Below, one piece after another: positions 1 through 42,501 of a DNA stretch of 64,000 nt (the stretch's first letter is position 1; the number at the start of each line of letters is the position of its first letter). The notes under the pieces are model-generated. The model made no database searches, had not been told where the DNA came from, and saw nothing but the letters and a program-made list of their open reading frames with translations. Made by a program: the position numbers and the translations under genes. The stretch is from Saprospiraceae bacterium (GTDB lineage: Bacteria > Bacteroidota > Bacteroidia > Chitinophagales > Saprospiraceae), in NCBI GenBank assembly GCA_021739645.1, contig JAIPBL010000007.1, forward strand, positions 1 to 64,000. The letters are read 5' to 3'.

Positions 1-341
1 GGACGGTTTGCTGCGCAATGACAAAGGCGGCGAAAAGCATGACGACAACCATGGCGTGGACGGGTTGCTTCGCAATGACAAAGGCGGCGACAACCATGAC
101 GACAACCGGGGCGTGGACGGTTTGCTGCGCAATGACAAAGGCGGCGACAACCATAACGACAACCGGGGCGTGGACGGTTTGCTGCGCAATGACAAAGGCG
201 GCGAAAACCATGACGACAACCATGGCGTGGACGGGTTGCTGCGCAATGACAAAGGCGGCGACAACCATGACGACAACCATGGCGTGGACGGGTTGCTTCG
301 CAATGACAAAGGCGGCGACAAACGGGGCGCTAACTGGGGCA
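1..341. repeat. 57-bp tandem repeat array, about six copies
   Basis: A 57-bp unit beginning GGACGGTTTGCTGCGCAATG is repeated from the window edge, with copies starting near 1, 58, 115, 172, 229 and 286; the last is partial and diverges after about 38 bp. Copies differ at only a few positions (CATGGC versus CGGGGC, AAAAGC versus CAACC). Because 57 is divisible by three and the unit lacks stops, at least two frames stay open through it and read as 19-residue repeats containing LLRNDKGG or AMTKAA. Such strings are typical of non-coding repeats translated by mistake, so I treat the array as intergenic. It may continue beyond the left edge. Confidence 0.9.
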
Positions 342-8344: not shown

Positions 8345-9214
8345 ATGAAAAACATCATTCAAATCCTCGCCCTTTCGCTGCTGCCGATGGCGGCATTTGC
8401 ACAACATTTGGAAGCTGGCATCCTGATTGGCGGCGCCAATTACGTCGGCGATTTGTCCAACAACTCCAGCAACCTCTATTTGAAAGAAACCAAACTGGCC
8501 GCAGGTGCTTTCGTTCGCCAAAACTTCAATGACTTGTTCGCCGTTAAACTTGGCTTCAACTGGGCCAGAATTTCTGGTCAAGATGCCAACGTGCGCAACG
8601 ATGATTACGTCCACGACCGCAACCTGAGTTTCCGCTCTAGTCTCCTGGAGCTTTCGCTGGTCGGTGAGTGGAATATCCTGGGCTACCAACCTTACGGCTT
8701 GGCTCGTCCGTTCTCTCCCTATCTTTTTGCTGGAATTGCAGGTACGAAGTTTAATCCAAAAGCCCGCTACCTTGGCAACTGGGAAGAATTGCAACCTCTC
8801 GGCACGGAAGGCCAAGGCATGGCTGGATTTGATTCGCCGTACAAGCGTTTTGCTTTTGCAATCCCCTTCGGTGTGGGTGTGAAATATGCCCTCACCGACC
8901 GCATCAACCTCGGCCTCGAACTCGGCGCTCGGCCTACTTTTACCGATTACCTCGATGATGTGAGCGGTGACTATGTCTCCTACACTGAACTCATGGCTGG
9001 CAACGGTCAACTTGCCGCCGCCCTCGGTAATCGCACAGGCGAGTTGAATGAAAATGGCGAACCTGCCATTGTGCCAACTGGTACACAGCGTGGCGACAAT
9101 GCCAAGAAAGATTGGTATTTTATCGTTGGCATCACTGCCTCCTACAATTTCCTCGACAACGGCCTCATGGGCGGCAGGAAGCGGGGGAAACGCAGGGCGG
9201 GTTGCTATAATTAG
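8345..9214 (+). CDS. DUF6089-type outer-membrane beta-barrel protein
   Basis: Secreted protein of 289 residues with a signal peptide ending MAAFAQ. It then has the family-typical LEAGILIGGANYVGDL, the strand pairs FAVKLGFNWARISGQDAN and PFSPYLFAGIAGTKFNPKA, and FGVGVKYALTDRINLGLELG. These alternating hydrophobic/aromatic strands indicate a small outer-membrane barrel. The family is widespread in Bacteroidota and has no established function known to me. A strong terminator embedded in an inverted repeat element follows at 9213-9386. Confidence 0.8.
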   Translation: MKNIIQILALSLLPMAAFAQHLEAGILIGGANYVGDLSNNSSNLYLKETKLAAGAFVRQNFNDLFAVKLGFNWARISGQDANVRNDDYVHDRNLSFRSSLLELSLVGEWNILGYQPYGLARPFSPYLFAGIAGTKFNPKARYLGNWEELQPLGTEGQGMAGFDSPYKRFAFAIPFGVGVKYALTDRINLGLELGARPTFTDYLDDVSGDYVSYTELMAGNGQLAAALGNRTGELNENGEPAIVPTGTQRGDNAKKDWYFIVGITASYNFLDNGLMGGRKRGKRRAGCYN

Positions 9215-9386
9215 TTTGCAGTTCGACAGTTTGCAGTTGGCAGTCAGCTTGCAGTTGTTTAGTCGGTGCGCAGCTCCGAAACAAGAGAGGAGGTAACTTT
9301 GAATAGCTACCTCCTCTCTTGTTTTTGCAGACGTTGCTGAACAACTGTCGAACTAGACTGCCAACTGCAAACTGTCGAACTGAAAA
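9213..9386. repeat. Inverted tandem-oligomer element (GCAGTT type) enclosing a terminator
   Basis: Left arm 9213-9260 repeats TTTGCAGTT, TCGACAG and TTGGCAGTCAG. The right arm 9336-9386 is the complementary series CAACTGTCGAACTAGACTG, CCAACTGC, AAACTGTCGAAC. A perfect 17-bp terminator hairpin (9279-9324) sits between the arms. The element fills the gap between the DUF6089 gene and the convergent methyltransferase gene, whose stop codon lies at the right end of the array. Confidence 0.85.
9279..9324. terminator. Bidirectional intrinsic terminator, 17-bp stem
   Basis: AAACAAGAGAGGAGGTA at 9279-9295 is exactly complementary to 9308-9324, with a 12-nt loop and T/A runs on both sides. It serves the convergent DUF6089 and methyltransferase genes. 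Confidence 0.9.
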
Positions 9387-10178
9387 CTATTTTTTCCGTT
9401 TCCCAATCTTGTGCTCCTCCTGAATCTCGCCATTGTTTCCCAGTCGCTCCGCAATCATCTGGTGGTACTCCGGGTGCAGCTCACAGCTGATAAAATTCCG
9501 GTTCATCTGCTGGCAAAGCACCAACTCTGAACCACTCCCACCGAATAGCACGAACACATCGTCTTGCTCCCGAGTGCATGATTTTATCAGCATTTCCACC
9601 AATCCGAGCGGGATTTGACAGGCGTGAAAAGTCTTGTCCTTGCTCACATTTTTCACCAAATCGAAATAAAACCAACTGTACGGCATCCGACCTACATGGC
9701 CATCGGCCATGCGCTGCATGATGCGTTTGTCGGTTGGGTTTTGGTACGGCACAGCGACTTGGTCCTTGAAAAAATGGTTGTCCTTCGACTTGGTAGCGTG
9801 GAGAATGGAACGGTGTGCCGTGGTAAATCGCCGGGGGCTGTGGCCGACGTTGGTGTTGTAAACCCAGGCGTATTCCTGCACGTCGAAGGCGTTTTCATCG
9901 AGGAATTTCACCCGGAGGTAGGCGTTCTGCTTGGGGTAGTTCATCATGAAAAGGTTGCCTGACGGTTTGAGCACCCGCATGCATTCCCTCGTCAATTCGA
10001 TGTACCAATCCACGTATTCGTTCCATTTGGTGACGTAGGTTTTGCCGTGATAATTGATGCCAACGCCATAGTCGGGGTCACCGTACACCATGTCCAACGA
10101 GTTGTCAGGCAGCTCGGCGAGCACCTGCATCACGTCTTTTTGAAAGACTTTGTTCCTAAACTTTTCGAGGGTCTTCAT
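9387..10178 (-). CDS. DNA adenine/cytosine-N4 methyltransferase, orphan
   Basis: Site-specific DNA amino-methyltransferase of the beta-like arrangement, 263 residues: the catalytic motif IV comes first (VYGDPDYGVG, residues about 31-40) and the SAM-binding motif I near the C-terminus (LFGGSGSELVLC, then FISCELHPEYHQMIAERL). LKPSGNLFMM is the usual strand after motif IV. Motif IV reads DPDY instead of DPPY or SPPY. No restriction endonuclease or specificity gene is nearby, so it is either a regulatory orphan methylase or one acting with a distant nuclease. Target sequence unknown. It lies 23 bp after selD on the same strand. Confidence 0.88.
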   Translation of the reverse strand: MKTLEKFRNKVFQKDVMQVLAELPDNSLDMVYGDPDYGVGINYHGKTYVTKWNEYVDWYIELTRECMRVLKPSGNLFMMNYPKQNAYLRVKFLDENAFDVQEYAWVYNTNVGHSPRRFTTAHRSILHATKSKDNHFFKDQVAVPYQNPTDKRIMQRMADGHVGRMPYSWFYFDLVKNVSKDKTFHACQIPLGLVEMLIKSCTREQDDVFVLFGGSGSELVLCQQMNRNFISCELHPEYHQMIAERLGNNGEIQEEHKIGKRKK

Positions 10179-14670: not shown

Positions 14671-14678
14671 ATTTTTTC

Positions 14679-14686
14679 TATCTTTG
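14679..14686 (+). promoter_or_regulatory. Bacteroidota -7 promoter box (TATCTTTG)
   Basis: A perfect TATCTTTG lies 5-10 bp before the first conserved bases of the cobalamin riboswitch, so transcription should begin near 14691. No convincing TTTG at -33; the upstream bases belong to the repeat array. Confidence 0.7.
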
Positions 14687-14690
14687 CGCG

Positions 14691-14930
14691 GCTACGGTGA
14701 TTTGTGGCACTGCCACAAGTCTGAAAAGGGAATCCGGTGAAAATCCGGAGCAGTCCCCGCTGCTGTAAGCTTCATTGATTTTTTTGACATAAAGCCACTT
14801 GTTGAAAGTTTTGAGTTTTGAGTTTTGAGTTTCGAGTTGTGCACGTCATAACTCGAAACTCAAAACTCAAAACTCAAAACTCAAAATTGGGAAGGCGTCA
14901 AAAAAGAAGCGAGTCAGAAGACCTGCCGTT
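14691..14930 (+). promoter_or_regulatory. Cobalamin riboswitch
   Basis: Conserved blocks occur in the right order: GGTGATTTGTGGCACTGCC near 14696, GGGAATCCGGTGAAAATCC near 14727, the B12-box-like AGCAGTCCCCGCTGCTGTAA near 14750, AAGCCACTTG near 14791, GGGAAGGCG near 14890, and GCGAGTCAGAAGACCTGCC near 14909. The segment between GCCACT and GGGAAGG, normally a short variable stem, holds a 78-nt inverted array of TTTTGAG units. A downstream GGCTTTC...GAAAAGCC stem (near 14948) may be part of the expression platform. It controls the TonB-dependent receptor that starts 142 bp later; adenosylcobalamin or another cobamide should repress expression. Confidence 0.93.
14809..14886. repeat. Inverted tandem-oligomer element (TTTTGAG type) inside the riboswitch
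   Basis: About four TTTTGAG heptamers at 14809-14838 (the last is TTTCGAG) pair with AACTCGAAACTCAAAACTCA and further CAAAACT units at 14850-14886, with an 11-nt loop containing GTGCACGTC. The stem is about 30 bp. The GTGCAC loop is itself palindromic. Confidence 0.9.
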
Positions 14931-15072
14931 GCGTATTTTCTCATTCGGGCTTTCGGAGGAAAAGCCGGGGAAGAAACGCAGCAATCCGTCTCCATCGGCT
15001 TGAAAATCAAGGCTTTATCGCCAATCTCGTTTCCAACCTGCCCTCCTTTTTGCCCACTTTTGGCAGGTAGTT

Positions 15073-38958: not shown

Positions 38959-40260
38959 CTAATTGTCCTGAAAACCTGCCAAAATCCTTTCCAAAACCCT
39001 ATTCAACAAGCTTCGTTTTTCTGTAACAATCCTAGCCGTTCCTTGCATTTCTTGCCGAAAAGGCACCAAGTTTCCATAGCTGGTTTTGAGGTCTTTAGGA
39101 ACAGAAATTTCCAGCTCATAGCCTTGCTCGCCCGGAACAACGGCAATGCGCCGAACCGCTCCATTCAACACGCCAAATTCTTGATAGGGGTAACCATCGA
39201 GGCGAATGATGACGGGCATCCCGATTATCACTTTGCCAGAACGGGCACTTGGGAGCAGTGCTTTTGCCAAAATTTCACCTGCGCCTTCTTGTGGAACGAT
39301 TGTCAGCACTTCCGTACCTGCTTCAACAAATTGCTGCTCGCTCCAAGTTTTTGTCAATGCCACCTCCCCACCTACTGGCGCAAGGAGCAGGTAGGTTTGC
39401 TTCCAAATACCAATCTCACCTTGCAAGCGCTGCGCCTCAGTACGAAAATCGAGTAATTTTTGCGACTCACCGTCTGATTGAACTTGCTGTAAATCAAGTA
39501 TTTGCGCTTGCATTTCTCTAATCCGGAGGTTGTTGCCTGCAGTGCCTGAACGCAGAGCTTCCAGCTCCCGCCGCTTAGCTAGCCAGTCCGATTGGCTTCT
39601 TTCGAATTCTAATTGAACGCCAGATTTATTCGCCAATAAAATGCTGTCACGCTGCATGTTTTTCATGGCCAATAGCACCTCTTCCTGCAATATTTTTTCT
39701 TGTCGGGCAAGGGAGTTATTTAATCTTTGGATTTCGTCCATTTGCTTTCGCAAATTGCTGATTTTCAAGTAGTTGATGTCTTGTGAAAGGAAGTATTTTA
39801 AGTCTTTCAGCCGCTGAGAAAACTCGGCGTAGCGAGCTTGAAGTGCCCCTAGTTTAAGTGCTTCTGGCAATTTTAAATCAAGGTTTCCATTTACCTCCTC
39901 TTTCATCATTTTTTGCAAAACCGAATCGAGAAAGACCACATCCTCCAACCGTGCTGGGCTTTCCAATACTCCCAGCAACGCTCCGAGTTGCACCCGGGAA
40001 CCATTTGAAACAGTCAACTTCTCAATTTTCGCACTGGCTCCCGCTACGAGGCGGATGGGTGGGTTTTCGGTCGTCAGCACGGCCCTAGCTTCAACAACGT
40101 CGGGATAACGAACGAGGTAAGCCACCCAAAACAACAATGCCAGCACGGCAAGCATGGCCGTCAGCCCCCAACGCAGCGTCCAACCGGGTGGGCTGCCGAT
40201 GAGTGCTTCGACGTCGTAACGCTCGTTGAGTTTGATGTCTGACGGGTCTTTTATTGCCAT
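38959..40260 (-). CDS. HlyD-family membrane-fusion protein
   Basis: Periplasmic adaptor that links an inner-membrane exporter to an outer-membrane channel, 433 residues. A short cytoplasmic N-terminus is followed by one span (WGLTAMLAVLALLFWVAYLV). A split lipoyl/biotinyl-like domain (IRLVAGASAKIEKLTVSNGSRV and LLAPVGGEVALTKTWSEQQFV) brackets a long coiled coil (about 125-290). Starts 15 bp after the C39 ABC transporter, forming a type 1 secretion pair. A TolC-like channel is not in the window. Confidence 0.9.
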   Translation of the reverse strand: MAIKDPSDIKLNERYDVEALIGSPPGWTLRWGLTAMLAVLALLFWVAYLVRYPDVVEARAVLTTENPPIRLVAGASAKIEKLTVSNGSRVQLGALLGVLESPARLEDVVFLDSVLQKMMKEEVNGNLDLKLPEALKLGALQARYAEFSQRLKDLKYFLSQDINYLKISNLRKQMDEIQRLNNSLARQEKILQEEVLLAMKNMQRDSILLANKSGVQLEFERSQSDWLAKRRELEALRSGTAGNNLRIREMQAQILDLQQVQSDGESQKLLDFRTEAQRLQGEIGIWKQTYLLLAPVGGEVALTKTWSEQQFVEAGTEVLTIVPQEGAGEILAKALLPSARSGKVIIGMPVIIRLDGYPYQEFGVLNGAVRRIAVVPGEQGYELEISVPKDLKTSYGNLVPFRQEMQGTARIVTEKRSLLNRVLERILAGFQDN

Positions 40261-40275
40261 TTTTGGTAATGAGTT

Positions 40276-42501
40276 TTATGCTCCCAATTCCAACTGTTCT
40301 TTGACCAACTGGTAATATGCCCCACGGCGTTTTGATAATTCATCGTGTGTGCCCACCTCCACTATTTCGCCCTGCTCCAACACCACTATCTGGTCAGCAT
40401 TTTTTACCGTACTGAGGCGGTGCGCAACGACTACAACAGTTTTTCCCTCAAAAAAATGAGCGAGGTTTTGGGTAATTATTTTCTCGGTATGGGCATCGAG
40501 GGCGTTGGTTGCTTCATCAAAAAACAGGTAATCCGGTTGCTTGTAAACTGCCCTTGCAATGAGCAGCCGTTGGCGTTGCCCCTGGCTCAGGCCATTGCCT
40601 CTGGCGCCGACCATCGTATTGTACCCAAGTGGCAAATTTTCGATAAACTCCTGAATATGAGCTACTTGCACAGCAGCAAGCAATTTCCCATGGTCAATGG
40701 CTTCCCAATCCGATTCACTTTCAGCGATGTTGGAAGCGATGGAATCGGAGAAAATATAACCATCCTGCATCACCGCTCCACATTTTGCCCGCCACTCGTC
40801 AAGTGGCAGGTTCTTGAGTTGCACCGTTCCGGCTTTTATAGCGCCAACACTTGGTTCGTAAAAGCCGAGCAGCAGTTTCACCAAAGTGGATTTCCCACTG
40901 CCGCTTGTTCCTACGATGGCGGTCACCTTCCCATCTGGGATGGTCAGGTTGATGTTTTTTAAGACAAAATCGGTGAGTGGATTATAGCGAAAGCTCAGGT
41001 TTTCGAGTACCAGCGGCTTTGAAAGAGGGATGAGGAATGAGGAATTAGGGATGATAGGGCGCTGCGTGTTCATCCCTAATTCCTCATCCCTCATCCCTCC
41101 TTGATGTATTTCGCCCAGCCGCTCCAAACTGATTTTGGCGTCTTGTGCCGACCGCACGAACGAGATAATTTGCTGCAATGGCACGTTCAGTTGGCCGAGA
41201 ATGAACATCGTAGCGAGCATCATACCCAGTGTCATTTCGCCCTGAATAACCGCCGCCGCTGCAATAGCGATGATGAAAATATCCTTGATTTGAGCGATGA
41301 ACTGCGCCCCGGCGTCCTGCCACTGCGTCACTTTGAGTGAGCGCATATTTGCCCTAAACAACCTTGCTTGAATATGCACCCAGCCATAACGGCGCTTGTG
41401 CTCGCTGTTCTGCAATTTAATCTCTTGCATCCCCTGAATCAGCTCGATAATATTGCCTTGATTGGCGGACAAAGCCCTAAATCGTTGGAGGTCGGCATCG
41501 GCTCTTTTCTTCAAAAAAAGAAAAATCCAAGCCACGTACAACACGCTGGCAATCAAGAAGATAGCAAATATTTTGAGGCTATAAACGGCCAATACCCCAC
41601 CAAAAATAACCAAGTTGAATGCAGAAAGCAGGATGTTCAAAGTGCCCACGGTGAGGAACTCCTCGATTCGGCGGTGGTCACCGATGCGTTGTAGGAGGTC
41701 ACCGGTCATTTTGGCATCGAAAAAGCTGATAGGCTGCGCCATGAGCCGTACCAGAAAATCACTGACAAGCGAGATGTTGACCCGGCTGCCGATGTGCAGC
41801 AGAATCCAATTTTGAATGAAACGCACCGTGGTTTGCCCGGCAAACAGCATCAACTGGGCAAAAAGTATCAGCCAAACAAAGCCCAAATCTTGGTTTTCGA
41901 TGCCCACGTCCACTACAGCTTGCGTTAGAAACGGGAACAAAAACTGGATGCAACTAGCCACTAGGACCCCAACGATGAGTTGTGTGGTCAGTCGCCGGTA
42001 AGGCCGCAAATAACTGAGTAAAAAACCAAAACCGCTACGGTTCACCTTGTCCCCTTCTTGGGCATAAAATTCAGGCGTAGGTTCGAGCAAAATGGCAATA
42101 CCCTGACGGCGGTCACTGCTCCAGTTTCGTTGAAACTCGGCATGGCCCATTTTTACTTTTCCCCGGGCTGGGTCAGCTATCCAGATGTTTTTTTTGTTGG
42201 CTTTATAAACAACGACAAAATGGTTTTGACGCCAATGGGCGATGCACGGCAGTGGCGCATCCAACAGTCCAACCTCCTCATTATCAGCACCTTGAAATGG
42301 AATTTTGACGGGCAATGGCCGCAATCCAATCCCCTCCGCCGCTACCACGATGCCCCTCGCCGACACGCCTTCCCTATCCAGATGGGTACGCTGCCGCAAC
42401 TGCTGTAACGAGTAGCGGCGGCCGTGGTACTCAGCCACCATCCGCAGACAGGCTGCACCGCAGTCCATGGCGTCGAGTTGGTGGTGGAAAGGGAAGCGCA
42501 T
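40276..42501 (-). CDS. C39-peptidase ABC exporter, with an in-frame repeat element
   Basis: Combined leader peptidase and exporter of the bacteriocin/double-glycine type, 741 residues. The C39 domain (about 1-130) has catalytic Cys in DAMDCGAACL, His in NHFVVVYK and Asp in WIADPARG. Six membrane spans (about 165-450) follow, then the ATPase with Walker A VGTSGSGKSTL, signature LSQGQRQRLLIARA and Walker B YLFFDEATNALD. Between span region and ATPase, about 26 residues (GMRDEELGMN, then PIIPNSSFLIPLS) are encoded by an inverted repeat (41025-41100) and look alien to the family. No substrate peptide is evident nearby. Confidence 0.92.
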   Translation of the reverse strand: MRFPFHHQLDAMDCGAACLRMVAEYHGRRYSLQQLRQRTHLDREGVSARGIVVAAEGIGLRPLPVKIPFQGADNEEVGLLDAPLPCIAHWRQNHFVVVYKANKKNIWIADPARGKVKMGHAEFQRNWSSDRRQGIAILLEPTPEFYAQEGDKVNRSGFGFLLSYLRPYRRLTTQLIVGVLVASCIQFLFPFLTQAVVDVGIENQDLGFVWLILFAQLMLFAGQTTVRFIQNWILLHIGSRVNISLVSDFLVRLMAQPISFFDAKMTGDLLQRIGDHRRIEEFLTVGTLNILLSAFNLVIFGGVLAVYSLKIFAIFLIASVLYVAWIFLFLKKRADADLQRFRALSANQGNIIELIQGMQEIKLQNSEHKRRYGWVHIQARLFRANMRSLKVTQWQDAGAQFIAQIKDIFIIAIAAAAVIQGEMTLGMMLATMFILGQLNVPLQQIISFVRSAQDAKISLERLGEIHQGGMRDEELGMNTQRPIIPNSSFLIPLSKPLVLENLSFRYNPLTDFVLKNINLTIPDGKVTAIVGTSGSGKSTLVKLLLGFYEPSVGAIKAGTVQLKNLPLDEWRAKCGAVMQDGYIFSDSIASNIAESESDWEAIDHGKLLAAVQVAHIQEFIENLPLGYNTMVGARGNGLSQGQRQRLLIARAVYKQPDYLFFDEATNALDAHTEKIITQNLAHFFEGKTVVVVAHRLSTVKNADQIVVLEQGEIVEVGTHDELSKRRGAYYQLVKEQLELGA
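41025..41100. repeat. Inverted tandem-oligomer element inside a coding sequence
   Basis: GAGGGATGAGGAATGAGGAA at 41025 onward, ending TTAGGGATGA, is answered by TCATCCCTAATTCCTCATCC and CTCATCCCTCC to 41100, with a 15-nt loop. The stem is about 30 bp. It is 76 bp long and in frame with the ABC exporter, at the linker before the ATPase domain. Confidence 0.92.

Follow-up and report, generated by a model that had tools for sequence, protein, structure and literature searches.

The exporter locus and its inverted heptamer element

The window analysed in this study, a stretch of 64,000 nucleotides from a Saprospiraceae bacterium, contains genes for a C39-peptidase ABC exporter and its HlyD-type secretion partner, a cobalamin riboswitch, and inverted arrays of short repeat units (Table 1). 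The reading frame of the exporter (42501-40276) runs uninterrupted across one of these arrays. An earlier note on this DNA had placed an inverted repeat in frame in the linker of the exporter, and the open frame, the domains and the alignment all agree with this; the in-frame inverted heptamer element inside the C39 exporter gene is confirmed as real. The inverted repeat that had been given as 41025-41100 (76 bp) starts 3 nt earlier and ends 2 nt later, and the inverted-repeat search gives a total of 81 bp, with 33-nt arms that are 94% complementary and a 15-nt loop. The 8-mer units of the earlier description give way to heptamers, since TRF finds period 7 in both arms, as does autocorrelation; the units are degenerate forms of GGGATGA/GGAATTA.

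Table 1. Positions in the window of the genes and repeat elements discussed in the text
Position	Strand	Feature	Basis
9212-9389	.	Inverted AGTTTGC-type heptamer arms around a strong hairpin, then T-rich sequence, between two convergent ORFs	Autocorrelation, alignments
14678-14944	+	Cobalamin riboswitch aptamer (RF00174) holding a second heptamer element	Rfam match, 107.6 bits
14807-14881	+	Inverted AGTTTTG-heptamer element in the riboswitch stem-loop between CACT and GGGAAG	TRF, autocorrelation, loops of relatives
38959-40260	-	HlyD-type secretion partner, 433 aa	ORF and domain match
40276-42501	-	C39-peptidase ABC exporter, 741 aa, host gene of the element	ORF; Peptidase_C39, ABC_membrane and ABC_tran domains
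41022-41102	-	Inverted tandem-heptamer element, exporter residues 467-494 (residue numbers by arithmetic from the gene start at 42501)	Inverted-repeat search, TRF, folding, Markov control
41070-41102	-	First arm on the coding strand, G-rich heptamers GGGATGA GGGATGA GGAATTA GGGATGA	Inverted-repeat search
41055-41069	-	Loop of the exporter element, 15 nt	Inverted-repeat search
41022-41054	-	Second arm on the coding strand, C-rich complement	Inverted-repeat search

Under a Markov-1 model, 100 copies of the full window reach 14 at best, compared with an inverted-repeat score of 27 for the element. Its DNA fold on the plus strand has a z of -8.1 and its RNA fold on the coding strand reaches -60.3 kcal/mol (z -12.2), with none of 200 shuffles as good in either case. 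The lag-7 score of 12 merely equals the best of the 100 Markov-1 copies, and hence it is the inversion, not the tandem signal alone, that carries the significance.

The solved exporter 4ry2 aligns with the exporter of the window over residues 7-735. In an AlphaFold2 model built on 32 aligned proteins, which is of moderate quality only (mean pLDDT 73.9, pTM 0.50), the longest stretch with a pLDDT below 50 comprises residues 468-492, lying between the final membrane helix (425-478) and the ATPase domain, whose first strand spans residues 497-504. The element would accordingly be predicted by the model to code for part of a disordered linker ahead of the ATPase domain, and this disorder may be the reason why the exporter tolerates changes there.

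The linker in related exporters

We compared the linker, measured as the residues between EIH and LENLSF, among 101 distinct proteins obtained from 131 exporter loci (L039, L100 and L114 had no ORF and 27 duplicates were merged). The genus set comprises 14 genomes, including that of the window itself (G000) and that of a sister species (G013). Outside the genus the linker has 20-25 residues in 82 of 87 exporters, mostly 22-23, the other five having 26, 28, 28, 48 and 48. Within the genus it has at least 28 residues in 11 of the 14 exporters; the exceptions are G007 with 23 and G004 and G002 with 20 each, the latter two being distant exporters (53 and 52% identical to the protein of the window). 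The window's exporter has 32 linker residues, an excess of about 9-10 over exporters outside the genus and well short of the roughly 26 extra residues that the earlier note had supposed to be tolerated. Nor do close exporters show the clean gap of 25-26 residues that had been expected: the sister G013 has 33 unrelated residues in place of the 32. Similar lengths without a heptamer signal are found in G005 (32), G011 (32) and G003 (33), so that unrelated sequence of the same length, which had been named as speaking against an insertion, is literally what four relatives (G013, G005, G011 and G003) carry.

Outside the linker the exporters of G000 and G013 are 97.2% identical in amino acid sequence (query residues 315-741, the part present on the G013 contig), and their DNA is 83-100% identical in 13 segments on both sides, compared with 35% in the 96-nt linker. 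The linker of G013 is not recognizable as a remnant of the element either, its local alignment being no better than shuffles (622 of 1000 as good). By eye, no target duplication is visible at the linker boundaries in the two sequences, and no near relative was found to have an empty site in its exporter, where an empty site and a target duplication had been sought; in G013 the segment is replaced, not missing. Judged from these sequences, the whole linker segment was exchanged after the split of G000 and G013, whether the element was gained once long ago or several times. A recent donor similar to G008 was considered for the linker of G000 and rejected, because the linker identity of 70% does not exceed that of the flanks (61-93% by segment).

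Five of the 14 genus linkers show a heptamer signal (p<0.01 against 1000 dinucleotide shuffles), with GRRATGA units in G000, G008, G006 and G012 and direct CAGTCCG units in G001. At the same threshold it is absent from the linkers of G005, G011, G003, G013, G009, G010, G004 and G002. The linker of G007 holds a palindrome of another type, whose core pattern is present in 8 of the 14 genus genomes. Hairpins better than those of shuffles are formed by the linkers of G008 (z -2.5), G006 (-3.6), G012 (-5.7) and G007 (-6.0), and hairpins no better than shuffles by those of G013 (-0.3), G005 (-0.9), G003 (-0.6) and G001 (1.0).

On the tree the GRRATGA state needs four changes. A single clade of the four GRRATGA linkers is rejected (AU test, p 1.8e-45 against 4 rows and 2e-5 against 16), and label shuffling does not show them to be clustered (500 of 500 shuffles as low). 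The four linker peptides are nevertheless alike, with z values from 6.6 to 11. This likeness fits one old insertion, but identical units read in frame would also produce it. The linker of G011 weakly resembles the GRRATGA linkers (DNA, 0 to 11 of 1000 shuffles as good; protein, z 4.8 with G006), and that of G013 weakly resembles the linker of G003 (DNA, 3 of 1000 shuffles, as one of 6 pairs tested; protein, 14 of 300). It is on this last likeness, weak as it is, that the direction of change in G000 rests.

PKS linkers and the riboswitch loop

A PKS matched in 12 of the 14 genus genomes behaves similarly. Three of its linkers carry a heptamer signal in 9, 6 and 7 of the 12 species, with differing units, although the background of this test is high (lag-7 signal in 20 of 231 windows). 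In the second linker the units are ATTCCTC in G000, of the CAGTCGC type in G013, CCATCGT in G006, AATCCGC in G008, AATCGTC in G012 and ACCAACA in G010. When the DNA of G000 is set against that of G013, identity is 96, 50 and 67% for the three linkers and 85% elsewhere in the compared part. Outside the three linkers a lag-7 signal occurs in 23 of 614 PKS windows, versus 13, 4 and 3 at lags 8, 10 and 11. A heptamer-like array can be recognized by eye in 22 of the 23. The PKS linkers, like the exporter linker of G001, also hold tandem arrays without inverted arms. Directly before the IGS(VKT) motif of the PKS there is an inverted GRRATGA element in G008 and G007, and a GATTTCG array in G012. In the PKS orthologues L195-L206 we noted about six further offsets with heptamer arrays in some species, several of them with differing units (by offset and eye, unaligned).

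The riboswitch is present in all seven species in which the region was read; the loops of three of the six relatives were anchored by script and the other three were read through Rfam. AGTTTTG-type arms are found in the loops of G000 (89 nt) and G013 (85 nt), and other inverted repeats in those of G008 (81 nt), G006 (80 nt) and G012 (80 nt), the last scoring 18 at lag 8 and 12 at lag 7. In G003 and G011 the loop has 11 and 20 nt, and these short loops supply the empty state that the earlier note had looked for, at a locus other than the exporter. Exporter linker, PKS linkers and riboswitch loop are thus sites that are occupied by different repeats in related species. The element at 9212-9389, over which a 901-base query gave 88 matches in its own genome, behaves differently: the alignments with G013, G008 and G003 run across it without a break (83, 77 and 75% over the whole match), so that not every site turns over.

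Heptamer repeats elsewhere in the genome

The exporter element is one copy of a dispersed family of degenerate 7-base units in two inverted arms. That copies of the family exist elsewhere had been claimed before and is borne out: two adjacent units (GRRATKAGRRATKA) match 29 times in G000, at 16 places by our own grouping, whereas the reversed control gives 0, both directions being counted. Across the genus the counts of GRRATKAGRRATKA range from 5 (G001, control 2) to 903 (G002), with 8 in G013; in G002 and G004 the pattern is unspecific, since the control exceeds the count. Within its own genome, GRRATGA-type copies also lie between genes, and further in-frame pieces were found in a PKS, in a 600-aa ORF and upstream of one C-terminal segment, which we take to be a type IX sorting domain. 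A hybrid kinase contains a palindrome of another type (L139), presumably between its receiver and DNA-binding parts, as labelled from the sequence; this kinase has matches in all 14 genus genomes, with only L207 of the 14 loci passing the ORF filter. An AATTGAG array of 4.5 units was noted at L183:10243-10274, in an apparent receiver domain of a 941-aa ORF, translated EILNSQFSILNL.

In 460,834 bases of the same genome we found 47 inverted repeats with a score of at least 16. In 13 of them the lag-7 identity of the arms reaches 0.59 or more, and others repeat with period 8 or 9; 32 of the 47 are not spanned by an ORF of at least 100 aa. Period-8 arms were seen, for example, at L192:8163-8251 and L178:19157-19227, the same genome thus holding other unit lengths.

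A scan for lag runs covered four whole contigs (684,532 bases) with a score threshold of 13, which leaves the exporter element (score 12) below it. Lag-7 runs lie deep in ORFs in 7 cases, outside ORFs in 20 and mixed in 2; the deep counts are small, and one of the seven runs (C80:22068) may lie in a spurious ORF. At other lags the runs deep in ORFs number 0 (lags 4, 5, 8, 10 and 11), 1 (13 and 16), 2 (6, 9, 14 and 15) or 3 (12), and 12 lag-8 runs lie outside ORFs. Repetition of a peptide alone would give multiples of three and does not explain period 7.

DISCUSSION

How could a heptamer array have come to lie in the linker of a conserved exporter? In our best explanation, to which we assign a probability of roughly 0.6, dispersed heptamer elements that work in a similar way to the Rickettsia palindromic elements (RPEs) take over tolerant sites again and again, displacing one another or older sequence. 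Elements of this kind would be copied into tolerant places such as linkers, surface loops, riboswitch loops and intergenic hairpins. The copying might take place during repair or replication, most likely through template switching or ectopic conversion where a hairpin or array already stands, and the copied element would overwrite the sequence previously at the site. Selection would then retain only variants that are in frame and free of stops. On the G-rich strand, an unvaried run of GGGATGA units meets a stop codon every 21 nt whichever of the three frames is read. Arrays can therefore persist in genes only if every third unit is a variant, and the open frame acts as a filter. In a test of unit phase TGA was avoided by 7 of 7 units in stop phase and by 5 of 15 others, a comparison that is illustrative only, as the first figure is inevitable given the open frame and some first units were assigned a wrong phase by the unit finder.

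The earlier note had seen in the element direct evidence of movement into new sites. The site does differ between close relatives, but by replacement of a segment and not by insertion into an empty site, and neither a donor copy nor a strain pair that would prove movement directly was found. No enzyme was identified for the exporter element either. REPIN/RAYT systems combine paired REP palindromes with a Y1 transposase, and Y1 (PF01797) transposases have matches in 12 of the 14 genus genomes (7 in G000, 0 in G013 and G001); they seem unlikely as the agent, as no link to the element emerged and there is no visible correlation with the state of the linker across the 14 genomes. MITEs have terminal inverted repeats, a target-site duplication and a transposase acting in trans. 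The exporter element has inverted arms; visual inspection of the G000/G013 boundaries revealed no duplication, and no transposase is linked to it.

More tentatively, as a possible rather than a probable course of events, we suggest that fixed permissive sites of proteins and RNAs might be rewritten by a process that ignores sequence but keeps to its place: whichever repeat family is active in a lineage would write over the array or hairpin that stood there before. The linkers of large enzymes would then become lineage-specific peptides derived from selfish 7-base repeats.

Alternatively, the element might have been inserted once, in the ancestor of the clade of eight species, and have descended in four of them while being lost, decayed or recombined away in the other four. 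The GRRATGA linkers are alike, that of G011 weakly resembles them, and the linkers of all eight species have 32-43 residues, longer than the range common outside the genus. One old gain followed by four losses also costs about as much as several gains. We nevertheless consider this unlikely, as it needs those four losses, as other repeat-type sequences occupy the same site in G001 and G007, and as simple decay would not leave the linkers of G013 and G000 no more alike than shuffles within otherwise nearly identical proteins.

Slippage in a fast-evolving linker, producing heptamer arrays on the spot and independently in each lineage without movement between sites, would account for arrays that lack inverted arms (PKS linkers, G001) and for units that differ between species. 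It seems quite improbable for the exporter element, because the GRRATGA unit family is dispersed in the genome, 33-nt inverted arms are not made by slippage alone, and an inverted GRRATGA element recurs at one PKS place in G008 and G007. A selected function of the hairpin in the exporter mRNA or linker, such as pausing translation between the membrane and ATPase domains, would suit the strong RNA hairpin on the coding strand and the hairpins of the G008, G006, G012 and G007 alleles, but is very improbable given that the sister G013, G005, G003 and G001 have none better than shuffles. The presence of the element can be explained without giving it a role in the exporter.

Among known systems, the described parts of the sources place RPEs closest in behaviour to the replacing elements that we prefer, and the heptamer repeats of cyanobacteria, Xanthomonas and Beggiatoaceae closest in unit. 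RPEs are palindromic repeats of 105-146 bp that lie between genes, are fused in frame in conserved protein genes and also occur in RNA genes; one enzyme bearing such an insert was active, and in-frame palindromic elements are already known from Rickettsia and some MITEs (PMC2229807). As far as that account goes, the exporter element resembles them as an in-frame palindrome inside a conserved protein gene, with intergenic copies too and with another heptamer family in the riboswitch. At 81 bp it is smaller than an RPE, and the RPE passages describe no tandem units, in contrast to the degenerate 7-mer arms, the many families and the differing families per site in related species seen here. By analogy the element would work like an RPE, but we do not file it as one because of its size.

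The heptamer repeats (TAACTGA, GGGNATC; STRR) are tandem 7-mers, dispersed and mostly intergenic, and TAACTGA also occurs in five Bacteroidetes (PMC4679880, PMC4692102). In these partial descriptions they share with our elements the tandem, degenerate and dispersed 7-base units that lie mainly outside genes. They are mainly direct repeats of one unit, however, whereas here we find inverted arms, many units per genome and apparent exchange within protein linkers. An STRR also lies inside an RNase P RNA gene. Among the titles and abstracts of the literature matches listed, we found no report of an exchange of heptamer families at orthologous protein linkers, which does not prove that none exists.

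In related uncultured bacteria, then, the same linker is filled by different repeats, in an exporter and in a PKS, and the same holds for a riboswitch loop. This natural series of linker swaps could be used to test which changes interdomain linkers tolerate, and it also forms a tractable system in which to ask how short heptamer repeats spread. Peptides such as SLIPHPSS or NPQSAIRNPQS are a caution as well: what looks like a conserved motif in a linker can be a DNA repeat in translation.

Translated repeats are known from other systems as well. In the mitochondria of Nematomorpha long inverted repeats lie inside translated genes and both arms encode conserved residues (PMC6649704); from what is described there, they are like the exporter element in being translated inverted repeats, but the element lies in a variable linker. 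Borg tandem repeats evolve fast and create disordered protein regions (PMC9879509), as the repeats seem to do here. The in-gene repeats described for Borgs are perfect peptide repeats with units divisible by three, in contrast to the unit of 7 found here. At the start of the window (1-321) we also noted a 57-bp tandem repeat of 5.6 copies, whose period is divisible by three and which is possibly a protein repeat of 19 residues.
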